A stretch of 36,606 bases of DNA from Candidatus Wallbacteria bacterium (GTDB lineage Bacteria; Muiribacteriota; JAQTZZ01), in the NCBI GenBank assembly GCA_028687545.1, contig JAQTZZ010000038.1:1-36606 (forward strand), written 5' to 3'. This document shows positions 6,576 through 26,565 of this stretch, one piece after another. How positions within the stretch are numbered: the stretch's first letter is position 1; each line of letters begins with the position of its first letter. The translations under genes and the position numbers were made by a program. A model generated the notes under the pieces. The model had not been told where the DNA came from and made no database searches. It worked only from the letters and a program-made list of their open reading frames with translations.

Positions 6576-8430
6576 GGCGATTTTATTATTGATTTTATTG
6601 TCCTCAGGACTGTTCGCCGACGACCTGGACCTGTTCAGGGAAGGGTACGAACTTTATAAAAATCACAGCTACAATCAAAGCCTTAATCTGCTCAGAAAAA
6701 TCTCACGTCAATATACAGCTTATGATTACGTCTATTATTTAATTTTGAAAAACTGCGATCGTCTGAATGATCCGATTTACGAAAACCTGATCCTGAAAGC
6801 CGACGATTTTATCAGTCAGGATTTCCCCTATTTCAGAGAAATCGTCGAAACCAGGAAATCAGTTCTGCTAGCGCGAAAAAAATATGCCGAAGCCCTGGAA
6901 TTGACAAGGAATTATCAATCCCATGGAGAATTCCTGCTCTGTGAATTGAGGATCGCAGTCCGAACTGGAGTGCGCAACAATGTTTACGGGACTCTCAATC
7001 TGCTCCTGGAGGAGCAGGACATGGAGCTGGCCAAGCGAGCCCTTCAGTCACTGGGACCTTTTTACAGCGACTGCTGGAAAAGCGTTCTTTCCCGGAATTT
7101 CTTCCAGTTTGCCTCTGCACTGGTGGGGATTAACTCAGGGAAAGCTCTCGAAGTGATCGGGAAATCAGATTTGAGTAAGGCTGACCGCAACTATCTGACC
7201 GCACTGGTTGAATTTCACAGGGACAACATTCCTGCCTCCTGGGAACAGGTAAAAACAGCACTTAACAGTAAAACACAGGCCAGATTTGAACTGATGCTGG
7301 ATTTTCTGCAAGTTCTGAAAAAGAAGGAAAGGAAGTTCTGCGAATATCTGCCAAAGATCGAGCCATACCTGACCGAATCGTTTTTTTCCCAGAAGGAAAT
7401 TTCCGACCTGTATCTGGAGACAGCCAGGATAATGCTTTCCTCTGATTCGGAAAAAGAAAGCTTGCGGCTTTTTAAGAAAGCGCAGGGTTTTGCTGAAAAG
7501 TGTCACGACGCTGAGCACGATGCTGAGAGTCTTTACAACCTGGCTAAGTGTTCATTCCGCTACAAGAATTATCAGGGAGCTTCCTATTTTTCCAAACTGT
7601 TCATCGCTAAATACGGGAACCATAAATACGCTCCTGAGATTTATTTTCTACGCTACCTGCTCGGGAAATTGCTGAAGGACGCGGAGTTTGTTTCGTCAGC
7701 TGCTGATGTGTTACTTACCGACTATCCTGAAACTCCCTACAGTTATTACATCCTGGCTTCCGGAAGAAAATTCAGATCTGAAAGCGCGGATGCATTAGAT
7801 ACATACCAGCCACAGCCAGTTACAGCTGAGATGAAAAAACAGAAATATTACCATCTGTTCAAGGCAGGATTTGTCAAGGAAGCCCTCGATCTGATCAAGA
7901 AACTTCCGGACGAGCGTGAAATCCAGGTGTCGCTTGGATATTACAGGCTGGTGGCAGCATACTCTGATTCGGCAGTTTTTTACGCTGATCTGATCAACAA
8001 AAGGGCCGGGACATACAAGCTTGATCCCGCATTGATTCTTGCCGTGATCAGGGAAGAGTCCCGTTTCGATTTCCGCGCAGTCTCATCTGCTGAAGCCATG
8101 GGTCTGATGCAGATCATGGACGGCACCTACAGCTGGCTCTGCAAGCAACTCGAAATCCGGAAAAAAGGTGCACAGGCGCTGCTCGATCCTGATCTCAATG
8201 TGACTCTGGGCAGCGCATATCTGAAAATCCTCGAGGACAGGTATTCCGGTTACCCCGAAAAATTGATTTATGTAATTGCGGCATATAATGGCGGTCCCGG
8301 TAATGTCGACAAATGGATAGATCGTTACGGACCTGAAAATTTTCTTCTGTTCGTGCCGTTTTCAGAGACTAAGAATTACCTCGCAAAAGTATTCAAAAGC
8401 TATTACAATTACAGAAATCCTTCCGAATAA
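6508..8430 (+). CDS. Secreted TPR lytic transglycosylase (Slt70-like)
   Basis: This soluble lytic murein transglycosylase cleaves peptidoglycan between MurNAc and GlcNAc in the periplasm. The longest open frame runs further upstream, but the ATG at 6508 gives a good signal peptide: basic KRRTR, hydrophobic [11 protein letters not shown], and cleavage after LFA. This makes a 640-aa precursor overlapping the acyltransferase by 68 nt in another frame. Residues about 45-480 are helical TPR-like repeats, as in the Slt70 doughnut. The catalytic SLT domain starts near 500 with REESRFDF (catalytic Glu near 515), [21 protein letters not shown] and PFSETKNYL. Co-directional with flhF and the radical SAM gene, it suggests envelope remodelling near an assembly site. 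Confidence 0.9.
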
Positions 8431-8450: not shown

Positions 8451-11057
8451 ATGTTCAAAGCCATTGTCCCCACAGATCGTCTGCCGATCCTGATCCTGGA
8501 CACGATCAGTTACTGCAACCTGCACTGCGTGATGTGTCCGCAGGGAGACCCGGTAGTGAAAGCCAGTACTCCCCGCGGGCAGATGGATTTCGGGCTGTAC
8601 CGGAGTATCATCGACGAGATCACTTCAACTGACGGAATCAAGGTCGATGCGATTCTCCCGTTCTGGAACGGTGAAGCGCTGCTTAACCCGGAATTCAGGG
8701 CAATGGTCGAATATGCAGCGGCCAGGCATAAAATCCTGCCCGGATTCAACGTGTTCTCCATGCATACCAATTTTCTGCTCTGCGATCCTGAGATGAGCAG
8801 AGCGATCATTCGATCCGGCATTTTCGGGCCGATCACTGTTTCCATCGATGCTGTAAACCAGAACACTTATGAAGGAATCAGGCAGGGAGGAAAATTCGGA
8901 GTCCTTCTGCAAAACCTGGAATTCTTTCTGGATTACCGCAGGACTGCGGGGTTGAAATCCCCGAGCATCACTGTGCAGTTCATCGTGATGGACAGAAATC
9001 TTAATGAAGCTATCGAATTCAATCGATTCTGGCAGCAGAAATTCGCAGAATTCGGGAGCTCTCCCCAAATTGTTTTCAATGATTCCGCAAGTTTCGACCG
9101 TGACACGATATTTTTCCGGCTGTTACAGACAGGAGATCCGGCTGGGCAGGCTGAAGCGCGCAACCTGCACTCCCAGATCCGTGCTAAACTTGAGCGCGAG
9201 TCTCAAGCTGCCAGGGTGACTTCTCTGGAAACAGCTAAAGAGGCTGCTGACAGCGGCAGGCCACCATGCGTAGTGCTGTGGCAGCAGCTTGCGGTGCGTT
9301 ATGATGGAACAGTATCACCCTGCTGCCGTGATATCGGATGCTCAATGGAGCTCGGGAATATCAGGGAAAAATCACTGAAGGAGATTTTTTTCGGGGCTCA
9401 GATCAATCAGTTGAGATTTTCCCATATCAGGGGTGAATTTTCCGCTCTGCCGCTCTGCTCAAACTGCCTCGACCAGACCTCTCATGAGATAACCCTGGAA
9501 GAGATTTCCAGGTTTCTCAGCTCAGTCGGGCGCAGCGATCTGGAATCAGGATTCGTGTGCCGTGTCGCTAAAAAAATTCCCCGGGAAAACTCGGCAACCC
9601 ACTATCAGAAGGGACGAAAATCCTTGCAGAAGGGTGACTATCTGAAGGCTGTGGAAGAATTCAGCGAAGCTCTCAGGCATTCCGAAAACGCAGAAATCTG
9701 GGCAGGACTTGGGGAGGCTTATGGTTTCATTGGAAAATACCAGGAAGCCAGGGAAAATTTGAAGAAAGCCATGGAGATCGGCAAATTTTCTCCGGAAGCT
9801 CCGCTGGACGGATACTGTCTGGGTCATTCATTATACAAAGCGAGAGATTCTTTTCTTAAAGCCTTGCTGCTGGATGAGAAAGCAGACTATTTTCACAGCC
9901 TGGGACAGGTGGCACTCTATTCCAGAAATTTCCACGAGGCAGTGCATTATCTCGAACTGGCGGTGGAAAAAGGTGTGAGTGCCGCTGAACGGGATCTCGC
10001 GCTCTGCCATTATCTGAGCGGGGATCCTGAAAAAGCCCTGAAATATTACCCGTATCTGGACCATTTTTCCGCAGAACTGGCTGAAGTCTGCGAAAAATTG
10101 AAACCAGGCTCTTCGAGAGTCTTCAGGCTGGGAAATTCTCTTACTGAAACAGCGGGCAGATTCGTCAAACCGACCATCGCATATGCGCTGGCGGATGAAT
10201 TTAATCTGAGGGTTGTGAACCTGGGTGTAGGCGGCGACTCCGTTTCAGACCTCTATCACAGGATTTCAGCGCAGATGGAAACCTTCCAGCCATTGAGGGA
10301 TAATTATTTCGTGGTCTTCATCGGCGCAAATGACGCCCTGATGGAGCGCGACCCGGCTGAATTCAGAGAGTTTTACCGGAAGTTGTTAAAACTGTTCCCG
10401 GCACTGTCCACGCTCTGCCTGACTCTCCCGGATATTTTCTGCAAAACTAAAATTGGCAATCCTCCTGATACTTCTCTCTACAACAGTATCATTGCGACTG
10501 TTGCCGATGATGCAGGCTGCAAGCTGCTTGATCTTGCCAAAACAGCTCTGCCTCCAGACTGCTATCTGGAAGACGGTTTACATTTCAAAACCAGGGGGTT
10601 AGAATTGATCGAGGAAGCGATCAACAGATCCCTCGGCAGCATGATGCGGAAAGCGAGAATTGGATTGAACGCGACTCTCGAAGCATACAGACAGTTCCAG
10701 GCTGGAAAATCCCCCGCTGATTTCCTGATCCTGGCCGGTTTTCTCACTGAACGGAAAAAATACCGGACATTGCTGGTACTTCATAAATATTACAGAATCA
10801 AGGAACTCAAAGTTTACGCTTATCTGGCTGAGGCACATCAGAAAACAGGATCATACAAAAGGGCCAGGCTGATGTTCTACAAGCTCTCCCGCAGGCTGGA
10901 CCCGCGCTTTTATGAATCTGTGGCCTATTGCCTGAGGATGGAAGGGAAATATTTCCTGTCCACATTCGCTTATCTGTTTTCAGCTCTCATTCTTAAAAAA
11001 CCATCGCTGATCAGGAATGCCTTTTACAATTTCAGGCTGCTGGGCAGAACTCAGTGA
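8451..11057 (+). CDS. Radical SAM/SPASM - TPR - SGNH hydrolase fusion protein
   Basis: This 868-aa protein joins three modules. Residues 1-345 are a radical SAM domain with the cluster motif CNLHCVMC (Cys 22, 26, 29), followed by a SPASM-like Cys region (CVVLW near 273, SPCCRDIGC near 290, CSNC near 343) that would bind extra Fe-S clusters. Residues about 380-550 carry TPR-like repeats. Residues about 555-715 form an SGNH/GDSL-type hydrolase: GNSLTE (Asn for the usual Asp), NLGVGGDS, FIGAND and DGLHF, giving Ser, Gly, Asn and Asp-x-x-His blocks. A final helical TPR-like part follows. It starts 20 nt after the transglycosylase and shares a GTGA overlap with the next gene. The substrate is unknown; peptide or glycan modification followed by deacylation is speculation. 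Confidence 0.85.
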   Translation: MFKAIVPTDRLPILILDTISYCNLHCVMCPQGDPVVKASTPRGQMDFGLYRSIIDEITSTDGIKVDAILPFWNGEALLNPEFRAMVEYAAARHKILPGFNVFSMHTNFLLCDPEMSRAIIRSGIFGPITVSIDAVNQNTYEGIRQGGKFGVLLQNLEFFLDYRRTAGLKSPSITVQFIVMDRNLNEAIEFNRFWQQKFAEFGSSPQIVFNDSASFDRDTIFFRLLQTGDPAGQAEARNLHSQIRAKLERESQAARVTSLETAKEAADSGRPPCVVLWQQLAVRYDGTVSPCCRDIGCSMELGNIREKSLKEIFFGAQINQLRFSHIRGEFSALPLCSNCLDQTSHEITLEEISRFLSSVGRSDLESGFVCRVAKKIPRENSATHYQKGRKSLQKGDYLKAVEEFSEALRHSENAEIWAGLGEAYGFIGKYQEARENLKKAMEIGKFSPEAPLDGYCLGHSLYKARDSFLKALLLDEKADYFHSLGQVALYSRNFHEAVHYLELAVEKGVSAAERDLALCHYLSGDPEKALKYYPYLDHFSAELAEVCEKLKPGSSRVFRLGNSLTETAGRFVKPTIAYALADEFNLRVVNLGVGGDSVSDLYHRISAQMETFQPLRDNYFVVFIGANDALMERDPAEFREFYRKLLKLFPALSTLCLTLPDIFCKTKIGNPPDTSLYNSIIATVADDAGCKLLDLAKTALPPDCYLEDGLHFKTRGLELIEEAINRSLGSMMRKARIGLNATLEAYRQFQAGKSPADFLILAGFLTERKKYRTLLVLHKYYRIKELKVYAYLAEAHQKTGSYKRARLMFYKLSRRLDPRFYESVAYCLRMEGKYFLSTFAYLFSALILKKPSLIRNAFYNFRLLGRTQ

Positions 11058-11497
11058 CAGAATTCCTGAAGATCCTGACTGTTCTGATGCTCGGCCCTTT
11101 TGAACTCTGGGCAGCGATCCCTGCAGGATTCACTTTCGGCTTTTCCCCGCTCAAAACCTTTTTCTGGGCAGTTACCGGCGGCACCTGCGGATCAGTCGCA
11201 GTGGCTGTACTTGGAGTCAGGCTGCGTGATTGGGCACTTAAAAAAATCCAGCTGCAGATTTCCCTGGAGGGCGAAGGCAGATTTTACAGGATCTGGAACA
11301 GATACGGGATCCCGGGGATCGGCCTGCTTTCTCCACTGCTGACCGGCCCGTTTCTGGGCATGCTGATCGGCCTCGCCCTCAGCGCTGAACCGAAGCGGCT
11401 GCTGTTCTGGACAGTCTGCGGAGTGCTGCTCTGGAGTGCAGGCCTGACCCTGGCCGGCATGACCGGGCTGGCGGGATTCAGGGCTCTGGCGGGTTAA
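11054..11497 (+). CDS. Small multi-drug export family membrane protein
   Basis: This 147-aa inner-membrane protein has about four hydrophobic segments and the marks of the Pfam small multi-drug export family: the start FELWAAIPAGFTFG (glutamate in the first helix), a loop RLRDWALKKI, then WNRYGIPGIGLLSPLLTGPFLG and a last pair of helices. Function in the family is poorly defined despite the name. It starts at a GTG that overlaps the stop of the radical SAM fusion gene by four nt, so the two are translationally coupled. It ends convergent with the ankyrin gene, sharing the palindromic TTAA stop bases. Confidence 0.8.
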   Translation: MTEFLKILTVLMLGPFELWAAIPAGFTFGFSPLKTFFWAVTGGTCGSVAVAVLGVRLRDWALKKIQLQISLEGEGRFYRIWNRYGIPGIGLLSPLLTGPFLGMLIGLALSAEPKRLLFWTVCGVLLWSAGLTLAGMTGLAGFRALAG

Positions 11498-12624
11498 AAA
11501 GTATTTTTTGGTTTTTTAGAAGTTTTATCAGACATTTTGGAACGAATCAGTTCAAGTAAGTCTTTACTTATGTTTGAAGGAGCAAAATCAAGGATTGTGT
11601 ATCCCATGGGATGAACAAGATTGACATCCGCCCCTTTTTCTATCAGTAATTGAGAGATCTTAAACATGGAGTGAGACACTGCCAGTGTCAGGGCTGACAT
11701 ACCATTGCCATTAACTGCATTTACATCAACACCTTTTTCGATTAATAATTCAGCAATTTCTGTCTGTTTAAATTCAATGGCAGTCATCAAGGGAGTATCA
11801 TTTTTATATCCTTTCTGATTGATCTCGAGACTCTTGGAAATCATGTCTAGTGCGATTTTTTGATCATTGTAATGGATTGCATATTGAAGGATTGTATCAT
11901 CTCTGAGTTCATTCGTATCCAGGGAGTTGAATTCATTTCCCATGTAATTTTTGTAGAGCTGGTCAGCAATGTCAGAATATCCAAATTTGATCGCAGTTTT
12001 CAGTGAGCCTGTTTGGGTATAGTAAAATTCCTTGTCTTTGCGGAGTATCTCGTTTGCCAGATCCTGAAAACCGAAAATCATCGCATAGCAAAGCGGTGTT
12101 GAAAGAAATCTTTTTTCAATTTCATTCAGATTTATTCCATCTCTAATCAACTCTTCAGCTTTCTGTCTGCCGTGAAACTTGAATACAGGATCCAATTTCC
12201 AGTCATTTAATGCTCCGATCAAAGAATCAACAGGAAAACAATCGATTTCCAGCTTTTCTTTAGGTGGAAAAAGACATCCATGATAGCTGCATTGGCAGTA
12301 ATATCTTGGAACTGCATTAACAATAATGTACTGACCATTATTTGGGCATTTGAATTTTTCCAGCAAATGGGAATCCTTATTAAATTTATCCAGGCGGCCC
12401 GGAGTTGTTTTTTGATACAAATAGTCCCAAAAACCAGGGTTAATGGCCATCTGATTTGCCATGCATTTATTTATACCGTCCACTTCCAGATTATATCGTT
12501 CGGTTTTAGTTACTTCTTCAAATCGTCTGAGGATTGAGTTTATGTTGAGACAAATTGCCACAACAGAAAGATAAAATCCCAGTGCCAGAATGAAAAAAAA
12601 CAAATGAAGTGTTTTTTTTCTCAT
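11494..12624 (-). CDS. Membrane-anchored ankyrin protein with pilin-like head region
   Basis: This protein of about 376 aa has a single N-terminal membrane segment (TLHLFFFILALGFYLSVVAICL). The following region looks like the head of type IV pilin-like proteins: KCMANQMAI, then FKCPNNGQYII and CQCSYHGC, matching the C..N..AI / CPNGG.Y / C..HG pattern of many predicted pseudopilins, though no prepilin cleavage site is seen. Residues about 155-365 hold six or so ankyrin repeats, the last two near consensus (DTPLMTAIEFKQTEIAELLIEKG, MSALTLAVS). ATG 12624 is chosen over an in-frame TTG 36 nt upstream; neither has a strong ribosome site. The ankyrin part may bind periplasmic partners. The function is unknown. 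Confidence 0.75.
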   Translation of the reverse strand: MRKKTLHLFFFILALGFYLSVVAICLNINSILRRFEEVTKTERYNLEVDGINKCMANQMAINPGFWDYLYQKTTPGRLDKFNKDSHLLEKFKCPNNGQYIIVNAVPRYYCQCSYHGCLFPPKEKLEIDCFPVDSLIGALNDWKLDPVFKFHGRQKAEELIRDGINLNEIEKRFLSTPLCYAMIFGFQDLANEILRKDKEFYYTQTGSLKTAIKFGYSDIADQLYKNYMGNEFNSLDTNELRDDTILQYAIHYNDQKIALDMISKSLEINQKGYKNDTPLMTAIEFKQTEIAELLIEKGVDVNAVNGNGMSALTLAVSHSMFKISQLLIEKGADVNLVHPMGYTILDFAPSNISKDLLELIRSKMSDKTSKKPKNTF

Positions 12625-12728
12625 CCAAGTATTGTACTTAGTTTTCTTCAATTTCCGCAAATTTAATAAAATCCGTTATACTAAGGTCAAATTTTGCTAA
12701 TTCCAGCCTGTTTCAGTATATTGAAGCT

Positions 12729-22659: not shown

Positions 22660-25600
22660 ATGCATCAAAGAAAAAGGCTTATCCTGTCCGTTTATTGCCT
22701 GTTGCTCTTTTTTCTGGCGCAGGGTTTTCTAACGCCTGGTGAAATCAAGCGGGCCAGAACATTTTTCGAGAATGGCATTGCACGTCTTAATGAAACCAAG
22801 TATAGCGAAGCGATCGGAGAATTTCAGGAATCCCTGAAAATCAACCCTGATCAGAGCGACGCCCATTTTTTTCTTGGTAATGCCCTGAAAATATCCGGAA
22901 ATGCAGAAGGCGGGATCAAGGAATGGCACGAAGCTATCCGCCTTAACAACCGCTGGCTGGAACCGCGTCTTGCGATCGCTGCGACCCTGCGTGAATTGCA
23001 CCGGCCGGCCGAATCCATTGATGAACTTACAAAAATCACACTGATTTTCCCGGAAAAAATAGATATTTTCAGAGAAATCGGAGATGTTCATTTCGAGACC
23101 GGCGATTATGCCCTGGCTTTGAACGCTTATGGCAAAGTACTGAACAGCCATCCTGAAGATCTTGAAACGCTGCATAGAGTGCTTGAATGCTATCGTAAGA
23201 CCGGTGAGCATGACCTGCTGCTCAGTACTGCGGATAGAGTGCTGAAAATCGACAATACAGACAAATCAGCCCGCGCAATCATACCGCTGCCGGTCAAACC
23301 CACGCTTGAACTGAGCCCTGTCCCCATAGCACCCAAACAGACCAGGAAAGTGGAGCTGGAAAAGCTGGTGGAAGAACCGCTGGTGCCTGTCTTTGTCTGG
23401 AAAACTCTGTTTCTGATCCTGATCTTCTCTTTCCTGTTTTATCTATTCCGAAGGCCACTGATACTTGCATTTCTCCCGACTTTTGAAGATTACGAAGCTT
23501 ATCTCAGAATGGCCGGAGAGCTGTTCCCAGCCGAACCCAGGGTGCGGCTGGCACTGGAAAAAGTTTACATCAAAAGAGGAGATTTCCACCGGTTGTCTGA
23601 ACTGCTGACCCCGTTGCCTGATGAGGAAGTGCCGAGGCAGGATCTGGAAAAATACGCCTATTACTGCGAAAAAGCCATGCTGTTTGACAAGGCTGAATTG
23701 GTGATCGAGAGACTGACTTCCTCAAATGCCGAAACCGGGCTCCTGATCCGACTGGCCGGACTGAAGGTAAGACTGAAAAAATTCGATGAAGCCGGTGACA
23801 TATGTTACAAAATACTGGGGAAATCCAAGAGCGAGTTCCATAATTTGATCGGATTCCTGGAAGAACAGCAGAATATTTTCGAGACTGACTTCAAATTCAG
23901 GGAATTGATCGGGAATGTTTATTTTCTGGGTCACGAGTATCAGAAGGCAGGAATAGCTTTTGACTACATTCTGGACAGAGACAGAGAAAACCAGCAGATC
24001 TTGGTAAAAGCCGAAACCTGTGCCAGGGCTTCGCAGAACTGGAAAAAAGCTGCAAGCTACTTGACAAGTCTGTCGGCCTTGAATCCGAAGAATTCTGAAT
24101 TTTACTTAGACCTTGCTGAAGTCAGCTTCAGGGCGGAGAAATACAGGCAGGCAGTGGAAGGTCTGAAATATGTCCTCGATCATTTTGGTTTCCTTGCCCA
24201 GGAAGTGGAAAAGAGGCACGAACAGTATTTCAAGGAACCTGAATACCGCAAAGTTTCTTTGCAGCTGCAGGAACTTCTGGCGAAATCCACCAAGACAGGG
24301 AAAACCGGAAAAAATCAGGAACAGACATTACGCGAAATGATCGCTGCCAACCCGTCAAATCAGGATCTTCGATTCAAGCTGGCAGATCTTCTGTTTTCTC
24401 AACAGCGTAACGAAGATTGCCTGGACGCGCTGAGCGCTGAAGAACTGATCGGAAATCGCGAAACGATTCCAAGGATCAGAAAACTGGTGGAACTGACAGT
24501 AAGCGAGCGCGCTCTCCTGTTACTGACCAGGGCGATGTCTGAACACTCTGATCTGACAACCCTGATCAGCATGTGGATGAAGTACCTTCCAGCTGAGCGG
24601 AAGGGATGTGATTATCATCAGACACTTGCCAGACTCTATGAATTGAAAGGGGATCTGGCCAGATCCTCACACCATCTGCTCCAGGCCTACCGGATAGGAG
24701 GAAAGCCTGAAGCGGAAGCCGTGCATTCTTCGCTCAAGCGTCTCGCCCTCGCGGCTTCCAGTAAAAACATCATCAAATACAGATTCCTGAATCTGTCACT
24801 CGAACTTAACAAATTTCAGGATTACCGTGAAGGAATTCTACCGCTCCTGCTGAATGGACCCAGGCTTGAAAAGGGCCTTTCACTGTTTCTAAGGGGGAAT
24901 AAATACTGTGAAAGCGATGATGCCTTCTGCAGAAATTTGGCAGCACTCGTTTCCTCCAATCCTCTGAATCCGATTCTCCAGGCAGCTTATGCATCGCTAT
25001 TGTCAGAGAAGGGAGACCGGAAAAACGCCAGAAAAGCTCTGGATAAGGCAACCCAGATTTGGCCTGAGTCTTCATGCATCTGCAGGCTCAAGGGGGATCT
25101 GCTGATCCGGGAAGGCATGCTGGAACAAGGGCTGATACTATATGACCAGGCTCTGGATGCTGCACCCCATAACCAGGACCTGAGGCAGGCAGCCGGACAG
25201 CTCAGAGAGAGATTGCTGGAGAAGCAGATTGCCGAAGCCAAGGCCATTCTGGCCGGGACCGCGCTGGATTTCATCCCTGTCATCGTCTTCGGCAATCAGG
25301 TGGATGCCAAACCAGGCAAGTTCTACCGCGAACTTTTCCCTCAGCGGGAAGGGAAGCGGGAATTCGTGCAGATCCAGCTCGGCAAAAAATACCTTGAAAA
25401 ACGCATGTTTGATGATTGCATCAAATTGGTACAGCCTCTTACTTCTGACGAGAGACCTGACTACCGTCTGGAGATAGACCTGATTCTCTGCGAAGCTTAT
25501 TTTGCAAAGAATTACCGGGACCTGGCCCTGGAAAAACTCAGGGAAATCGAAGTTCTTTCTGCAAAATCAACTCCCAAGGACAGGGTAAGGACTCTTTATA

Positions 25601-26565
25601 AAAAGGGAGTGATCCTGGAACGCTACAACCAGCTCGATGAAGCCAGGAAAAGTTTCCAGGAAGCCGCCCTGCTGGATTTCAGCTTCAGGGACGTGGCGAA
25701 GCGGGTCGAACAGATCAATCGTAAGCTTGACATTAACAGGACATTCATAGTCCGGAAGGACATCGCAGAAATCCTGAGGGAAAAATACCCGACCCTTGAA
25801 AAAATGGGAAGGGGTGGATTGAGTGAAGTCTATCTGGCATCGGAAAGCGTTGGAGGCGGTCAGGTAGCTCTGAAAGTTCTGCTGCCGGAATTCATCAATG
25901 ACGAAGAAATCAGATCCAGATTCCAGAGAGAAGCTGAAGCTACATTAAAACTTTCTCATGAAAACATCCGGAAGGTTCTGAAAGTCGAAGCGAGCGGGCT
26001 GATCTATCTTGTGATGGAATTCGTGGAAGGTTCGACTCTTAAAGAGGAAATCTGCTCCAGGGATAATCTGCCGGAAGCTGAAGCTGTCAGGATCGCGCTG
26101 GGGATACTTGCAGGGCTTGAATATGCCCATGAAAACGGGATTATGCACCGTGACGTCAAGCCTGAAAACATCATTCTGGGAAAAGGTGGTGCAGTCAAGC
26201 TGCTGGATTTCGGCCTGGCCAGATTCGAAGAGGAGATCAGTCGGACCCGGATCGGAGTGGTGATGGGAACCAGGTCCTATATGTCCCCTGAGCAGATCAG
26301 AGGAGAATCAGTGGACCTAAGGTCCGATATTTATTCATTCGGATGCACCCTCTACGAGATGGTTACCGGGCAACCCCCATTTTCCTCGGGTGACATCGCT
26401 TATCAGCATCTCAATCTCAAGCCTGTCTCTCCCAAGCGTTTGAACCCGGAGTTGACGGATAAACTGGAGGTTGTGATTCTCAAGTGTCTGGAAAAGGAAA
26501 AGGAAAAACGATTTTCAACCGATAGGGAAATTATCAAAGAGCTTTTAAGCTTCTCCGGGAAATAA
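22660..26565 (+). CDS. TPR - transmembrane - TPR - Ser/Thr protein kinase
   Basis: This is a 1301-aa membrane protein with the kinase at its C-terminus. Residues 1-23 are a signal sequence or anchor. Residues about 28-215 hold TPRs (AIGEFQESLKINPD, ALNAYGKVLNSHPED). A transmembrane helix follows at about 244-263, flanked by positive residues (FRRP). Residues about 285-1030 are a long TPR-like superhelix. The Hanks-type kinase spans about 1035-1300: GRGGLSEVY, VALK (ATP lysine near 1072), HRDVKPEN (near 1162), DFGLA (near 1182) and SPEQ, all intact. If the first helix is cleaved or crosses, the N-terminal TPRs lie outside and the kinase inside. Most bacterial kinases of this class have the opposite domain order. 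Substrates are unknown. Confidence 0.88.
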   Translation: MHQRKRLILSVYCLLLFFLAQGFLTPGEIKRARTFFENGIARLNETKYSEAIGEFQESLKINPDQSDAHFFLGNALKISGNAEGGIKEWHEAIRLNNRWLEPRLAIAATLRELHRPAESIDELTKITLIFPEKIDIFREIGDVHFETGDYALALNAYGKVLNSHPEDLETLHRVLECYRKTGEHDLLLSTADRVLKIDNTDKSARAIIPLPVKPTLELSPVPIAPKQTRKVELEKLVEEPLVPVFVWKTLFLILIFSFLFYLFRRPLILAFLPTFEDYEAYLRMAGELFPAEPRVRLALEKVYIKRGDFHRLSELLTPLPDEEVPRQDLEKYAYYCEKAMLFDKAELVIERLTSSNAETGLLIRLAGLKVRLKKFDEAGDICYKILGKSKSEFHNLIGFLEEQQNIFETDFKFRELIGNVYFLGHEYQKAGIAFDYILDRDRENQQILVKAETCARASQNWKKAASYLTSLSALNPKNSEFYLDLAEVSFRAEKYRQAVEGLKYVLDHFGFLAQEVEKRHEQYFKEPEYRKVSLQLQELLAKSTKTGKTGKNQEQTLREMIAANPSNQDLRFKLADLLFSQQRNEDCLDALSAEELIGNRETIPRIRKLVELTVSERALLLLTRAMSEHSDLTTLISMWMKYLPAERKGCDYHQTLARLYELKGDLARSSHHLLQAYRIGGKPEAEAVHSSLKRLALAASSKNIIKYRFLNLSLELNKFQDYREGILPLLLNGPRLEKGLSLFLRGNKYCESDDAFCRNLAALVSSNPLNPILQAAYASLLSEKGDRKNARKALDKATQIWPESSCICRLKGDLLIREGMLEQGLILYDQALDAAPHNQDLRQAAGQLRERLLEKQIAEAKAILAGTALDFIPVIVFGNQVDAKPGKFYRELFPQREGKREFVQIQLGKKYLEKRMFDDCIKLVQPLTSDERPDYRLEIDLILCEAYFAKNYRDLALEKLREIEVLSAKSTPKDRVRTLYKKGVILERYNQLDEARKSFQEAALLDFSFRDVAKRVEQINRKLDINRTFIVRKDIAEILREKYPTLEKMGRGGLSEVYLASESVGGGQVALKVLLPEFINDEEIRSRFQREAEATLKLSHENIRKVLKVEASGLIYLVMEFVEGSTLKEEICSRDNLPEAEAVRIALGILAGLEYAHENGIMHRDVKPENIILGKGGAVKLLDFGLARFEEEISRTRIGVVMGTRSYMSPEQIRGESVDLRSDIYSFGCTLYEMVTGQPPFSSGDIAYQHLNLKPVSPKRLNPELTDKLEVVILKCLEKEKEKRFSTDREIIKELLSFSGK

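Follow-up and report, generated by a model that had tools for sequence, protein, structure and literature searches.

A leaderless pilin-type head joined to ankyrin repeats in a Candidatus Wallbacteria membrane protein

The gene described here encodes a protein in which a membrane helix, a head homologous to those of type IV pilins, a short linker and ankyrin repeats follow one another (Table 1). It lies in a window of 36,606 nucleotides, the whole stretch of DNA analysed (contig JAQTZZ010000038.1 of assembly GCA_028687545.1, here C38). The homology of the head, the absence of a prepilin leader, the ankyrin repeats and the existence of a subfamily of such fusions are backed by this analysis; from the sequence we infer the probable topology, a stalk role for the head and a binding role for the repeats. 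We favour, at a probability of roughly 60%, a leaderless pilin-head fusion with an uncleaved inner-membrane anchor, a stalk formed by the head, and extracytoplasmic ankyrin repeats.

The reading frame is unbroken, with 376 amino acids from the ATG at 12624, or 388 if the upstream TTG at 12660 is used. The original prediction had described a membrane helix followed by KCMANQMAI (C54), CPNNGQYII (C93), CQCSYHGC (C110, C112, H115 and C117) and then ankyrin repeats, and all of these are present. The most hydrophobic stretch of 19 residues begins at residue 8, and the Pfam Ank_2 match (E 2.8e-21, 76.3 bits against a cut-off of 27.3) makes the product an ankyrin-repeat protein. Across the six frames of the window, this gene has the sole occurrence of the motif C..[NH]-x-CP..G.[YF]-x-C..H. 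The gene shares four bases with the end of a plus-strand Sm_multidrug_ex gene, it is divergent from a U32 peptidase gene, and its G+C content is 36%, against 47.5% for the whole window. The window also encodes an 868 aa protein with radical SAM/SPASM, TPR and GDSL lipase domains by Pfam (8451-11057) and one of 1301 aa (22660-26565) that has numerous TPRs and, at its C-terminus, a protein kinase domain.

Table 1. Features of the fusion gene, in window coordinates. A2, A7 and A8-A10 are alignments.
Feature	Positions	Strand	Evidence
Whole gene, 376 aa: membrane helix, pilin head, DW linker, ankyrin repeats	11494..12624	-	ORF, Pfam, hydropathy
N-terminal membrane helix, about residues 7-29, without class III (prepilin) leader	12538..12606	-	Hydropathy, predicted helix 3-71, no N_methyl match
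Pilin-type head, residues 43-118	12271..12498	-	Profile searches
C54, first conserved head position, on the long helix	12463..12465	-	Invariant in A2 and A7; paired with a Cys of 4IXJ by the A7 profile
C93 of CPNNGQY	12346..12348	-	Invariant in A2 and A7
C112 of CSYH	12289..12291	-	Invariant in A2 and A7
H115 of CSYHG	12280..12282	-	Invariant in A7 (29 rows), nearly so in A2 (20 rows)
DW linker, residues 131-178, common to the fusion subfamily	12091..12234	-	Alignments A8-A10, phylum search
Ankyrin repeats	11581..12096	-	Pfam, Ank_2 at 11713-11997 and 11581-11727; first repeat to 12096 by eye

Neither Pfam (E up to 1) nor NCBIfam gave a match to the head by itself, and Pfam on the whole protein returned nothing besides ankyrin families and a single weak name of an unrelated kind; the case for homology was therefore built on intermediates. 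At E up to 10, a profile of six heads, chosen by eye and all from ankyrin proteins, found 24 places in the same genome, among them C1:145139-145369, a canonical prepilin carrying this kind of head. The neighbours of this pilin match T2SSF, T2SSE and T2SSE plus MshEN in Pfam, and can be read as a putative pilC-, pilT- and pilB-like set; in a related genome, G001, a pilin with the same head (G001:C100) adjoins a gene of the same kind, judged by sequence. Twenty heads of the own genome were aligned (A2), with C, CP and C invariant. Using profiles without the target row, built by successive leave-outs, the target head scored 28.7, 25.9 and 25.3 bits (19, 15 and 11 rows, the last also lacking all ankyrin proteins), while the best of 3000 shuffles reached 9.3, 10.0 and 10.9 bits, respectively. 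The strictest profile was limited to heads, without helix or fusions, of 19 prepilins that have a leader, some from the phylum and some from elsewhere, and with it the target head scored 24.0 bits (E 9.5e-6 at Z=4500), these prepilins having been gathered, with some circularity, via the A2 profile, in which the target is one of 20 rows. No shuffle scored as well, whether among 5000 plain ones or among 2000 in which C and H were held fixed (best 10.9 bits); as the C/H-fixed shuffles do not reach the target score, the likeness goes beyond the motif alone. Homology of the head to pilin heads, that of the own-genome pilin included, is confirmed at the level of profile comparison. Pattern searching was less informative: an in-frame search gave 37 matches, weakly over the 25 of a reversed control, and was left out of the evidence, and viral contigs scanned with the pilin heads gave 42 pattern matches with no confirmed relative.

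The heads were also compared with solved structures. The A7 profile comprises 29 heads without their membrane helix (prepilins, fusions and the target), which we chose from 83 collected heads plus the target, and its invariant positions are C, C, Y, C and H. Its best match in the PDB is PilJ of Clostridioides difficile (4IXJ, E 5.8e-5), followed by GspG/EpsG (E 0.003-0.036); all four positions of the C/C/C/H set, which the target shares with the other heads, are aligned with PilJ. We assume that PilJ binds zinc via these residues. Earlier attempts had been poorer, since the first head alignment found only 7bu0 in the PDB (E 2), none of its six members matched NCBIfam, and Pfam on 20 own-genome heads gave T2SSG in two members (best E 0.19) and otherwise unrelated weak names. 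Among the curated families, a relative with three heads (L156) matches PilJ_Pilin at 29.2 bits (cut-off 26) and T2SSG at 23.1 (cut-off 21), the target has no match to PilJ_Pilin (PF22473) at the curated cut-off, and the NCBIfam ComGC model matches 8 of the 29 heads at E up to 0.01, the best at 5e-5 and, in the match listed, below the model's cut-off.

Structure prediction, proposed as a check against minor pilins, gave a weak model of the target. The AlphaFold2 model of residues 1-145 (mean pLDDT 65.8, from 3 rows of which two are pilin-type heads) has helices at 3-71 and 85-90 and strands at 99-104 and 107-112. As control, the real prepilin of the related genome was modelled with the same three rows (pLDDT 74.5), and it has the same elements in the same order (helices 2-67 and 76-82, strands 100-105 and 109-114). 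With Foldseek, 4IXJ ranked first for the target, at a non-significant E of 1.2. VIA-align also ranked 4IXJ first, giving Z 6.0 against it (rmsd 2.8, 70 aligned), a range that the tool warns may mean a common arrangement only, Z 4.8 against C. difficile PilA1 (6t8s; rmsd 3.5, 80 aligned), and Z 5.5 against an unrelated long helix. For the control, the top two Foldseek entries were 4IXJ (E 0.11) and then PulG, and VIA-align gave Z 7.8 for PulG (rmsd 2.5, 83 aligned) and 7.5 for PilJ (rmsd 2.4, 75 aligned); these values are also modest, and thus a true pilin scores modestly at such alignment depth. The predicted model agrees with a pilin fold and falls short of proof.

A search for the processing site, suggested in the original prediction, did not find one: PF07963 (N_methyl) has 42 matches over the genome at E up to 10, and none at C38:11494-12660. 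The only G before F, G16, sits within the hydrophobic stretch and has V at +5, and the class III leader of prepilins (small residue, hydrophobic stretch, Glu5) is absent. Among those listed of the 29 own-genome head matches counted, N_methyl coincides with a head only at the C1:145 kb pilin; C23:13649 has a leader-like start by eye. Elsewhere, G000:C17:30803-30868 is an N_methyl match within an open frame of 6779 aa. As it has no prepilin leader, the protein is a leaderless pilin-head fusion rather than a pilin. The original prediction of an anchored display is supported in part: the missing processing site fits an uncleaved helix, and the display of the repeats would follow from the topology proposed below.

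The single N-terminal helix would hold the protein in the inner membrane, probably with its N-terminus inside, judging from the MRKK ahead of the helix. Since the class III leader is missing, the prepilin peptidase should leave the protein uncut, so that it would stay anchored and off the usual filament route. The helix is predicted to continue into the head, as in pilins, and the C/C/C/H set, a candidate metal site or source of disulphides, may hold the head together. Beyond the short DW linker, the ankyrin repeats would form a putative extracytoplasmic protein-binding array. The head, apparently of type IV pilin descent, would most likely act here as a rigid, export-competent stalk.

The fusion was held to be unusual, and it is real but no one-off. 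A profile of the DW linker (8 rows, six from the own genome and two from G001) was searched in 39 genomes of the phylum. Strong own-genome members, at E 3.3e-19 or better, lie on C18, C39, C38 (the target), C15, C41 and C31, and in G001 the profile found its own two rows and a new member on C221 (E 2.4e-11); the remaining matches in the 39 genomes have E 5.6e-4 or weaker and chiefly concern the ankyrin end. With C68, a partial member at a contig end whose ankyrin support is weak (Pfam 0.015), the subfamily amounts to about seven own-genome genes, six strong and one partial, and is found elsewhere in one related genome, of a second genus.

Heads of this type are widespread in the phylum, each of the 39 genomes searched having 1 to 29 matches to A2 at E up to 0.001. 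A wider search (threshold 1e-5, fewer candidates scored) matched 65 of 381 genomes, 27 of the 342 outside the phylum included; 6 of 12 outside-phylum loci have a leader by pattern. Within the phylum, prepilins have such heads, and so do proteins in which the head is doubled or tripled; a pilin-helix-like segment without leader precedes some of these heads, for example IAAITVPNFQQAR in L108. The loci inspected inside and outside the phylum were our own choice rather than a random sample and give no proportions. Proteins from other families of the phylum (L094, L095, L099, L108 and L156) have one to three heads, the last often after a leaderless pilin-like helix. An arrangement shared by both genomes of the family, at L044:1057-2316 and L151:2-1141, is a thioredoxin-like domain and then two pilin-type heads, while L164:1812-3491 (the L035 gene) and L150:3-1298, frames of 432-591 aa, have a prepilin-like start and head followed by TPR-like and propeller-like parts. 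At L162:8744-9733 (C72), a signal-peptide-like start, an ankyrin-like part, a head and a short secretin-like domain were recognised by eye, the ankyrin and secretin parts being unconfirmed by Pfam. In the own genome, Ank_2 has 100 matches at E up to 0.001, and seven frames coincide with head matches; among 18 non-seed head matches, ankyrin support was found at C1:23 kb (Pfam E up to 0.001), weakly at C68 and by eye at C72. An enrichment of head plus ankyrin (p ~6e-9) was set aside, because the six seeds all came from ankyrin proteins and gene counts were estimated by hand.

The phylum seems to have made the pilin head a reusable building block. A bolder proposal, which we regard as speculative and doubtful, is that it is a portable extracytoplasmic domain, N-terminal, C-terminal or in tandem and placed beside ankyrin repeats, thioredoxin, HEAT, TPR-propeller and other parts, with head-to-head recognition bringing such proteins together or recruiting them to the pilus, as a pilin-based docking code. 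Leaderless heads separate the head fold from filament assembly, and these proteins are a natural construct set for the role of a lone pilin head, whether in extracytoplasmic fold stability or in the recognition of other heads.

Other explanations bear on the head and on the fate of the protein. That the head is an unrelated small metal-binding domain, zinc-ribbon-like and sharing CPxGG and CxxH with pilins by chance, appears very improbable. CP..G plus C..H is a zinc-ribbon-like pattern, the C/C/C/H set is the most conserved part of the heads, and the insignificant Foldseek rows for the target include the zinc-finger protein 8yoz_B (E 3.4) and ATCase chains. Yet the C/H-fixed shuffles never equal the target's score against prepilin heads, and the motif is itself found in prepilin heads and in 4IXJ, so that the unrelated metal site named in the original prediction as its possible refutation was not seen. 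We also consider it improbable, to a lesser degree, that the gene is a decaying relic, one copy in a family that duplicated within this lineage and is drifting toward AT-rich sequence without function. This would account for the eroded heads of three subfamily members (C15, C18 and C39), which suggest that the head may be dispensable, for the low G+C of C38, C23, C39 and C15 (0.36-0.41) and for the lack of a clear ortholog, residues 1-165 having no more than four matches, all weak (E 0.0016-0.0054), in 4 of the 55 other genomes. However, the target keeps its open frame, its four head positions and the linker, and the subfamily reaches a second genus, with a similar pair in C39 and G001 C181.

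Somewhat better placed, though still unlikely in our opinion, is a role as pilus adapter, in which the head binds pilin heads or minor pilins and the anchored ankyrin protein docks on, or rides, a type IV pilus or type II-like pseudopilus. The target head is of the pilin's own kind, the L162 gene is 338 bases from two same-strand prepilin genes (7503-7958 and 7930-8406), and PMC8179133 describes functional modules fused to pilins for presentation by filaments. Against this, a protein without leader would not be incorporated in the ordinary way, and the fusion genes on C38, C41, C31, C32 and C1 (23 kb) lie outside pilus clusters, by Pfam and the starts of neighbouring ORFs. The leaderless, anchored fusion with the head as stalk remains our preferred reading.

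ComGC, GspG and DUF1559 prepilins are leader-bearing filament subunits, and they are matched weakly by the heads of some relatives, not by the target head. As in other bacterial ankyrin-repeat proteins, Ank_2 repeats are present in the target, and only some of the ankyrin frames of its genome have heads. Of the PDB entries, PilJ matches the head profile best; according to PMC4471445, this minor pilin of C. difficile has two pilin folds, whereas the target combines a single head with ankyrin repeats. In layout, the fusion resembles the modular, or bimodular, type IV pilins, in which a pilin module is joined to a foreign domain by a short linker. In Streptococcus sanguinis PilB, for example, the functional domain is not pilus-specific, as given in PMC8179133, where modular pilins are filament subunits with a class III leader; the target has the foreign domain and lacks the leader. 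The word "ankyrin" is absent from the main text of that article, and a literature search by title and start of abstract found no pilin-ankyrin fusion, with no claim of absence from print. Filament subunits with additional domains are the known form of modular pilins; in the present case, a head lacking the leader is found in many proteins per genome.
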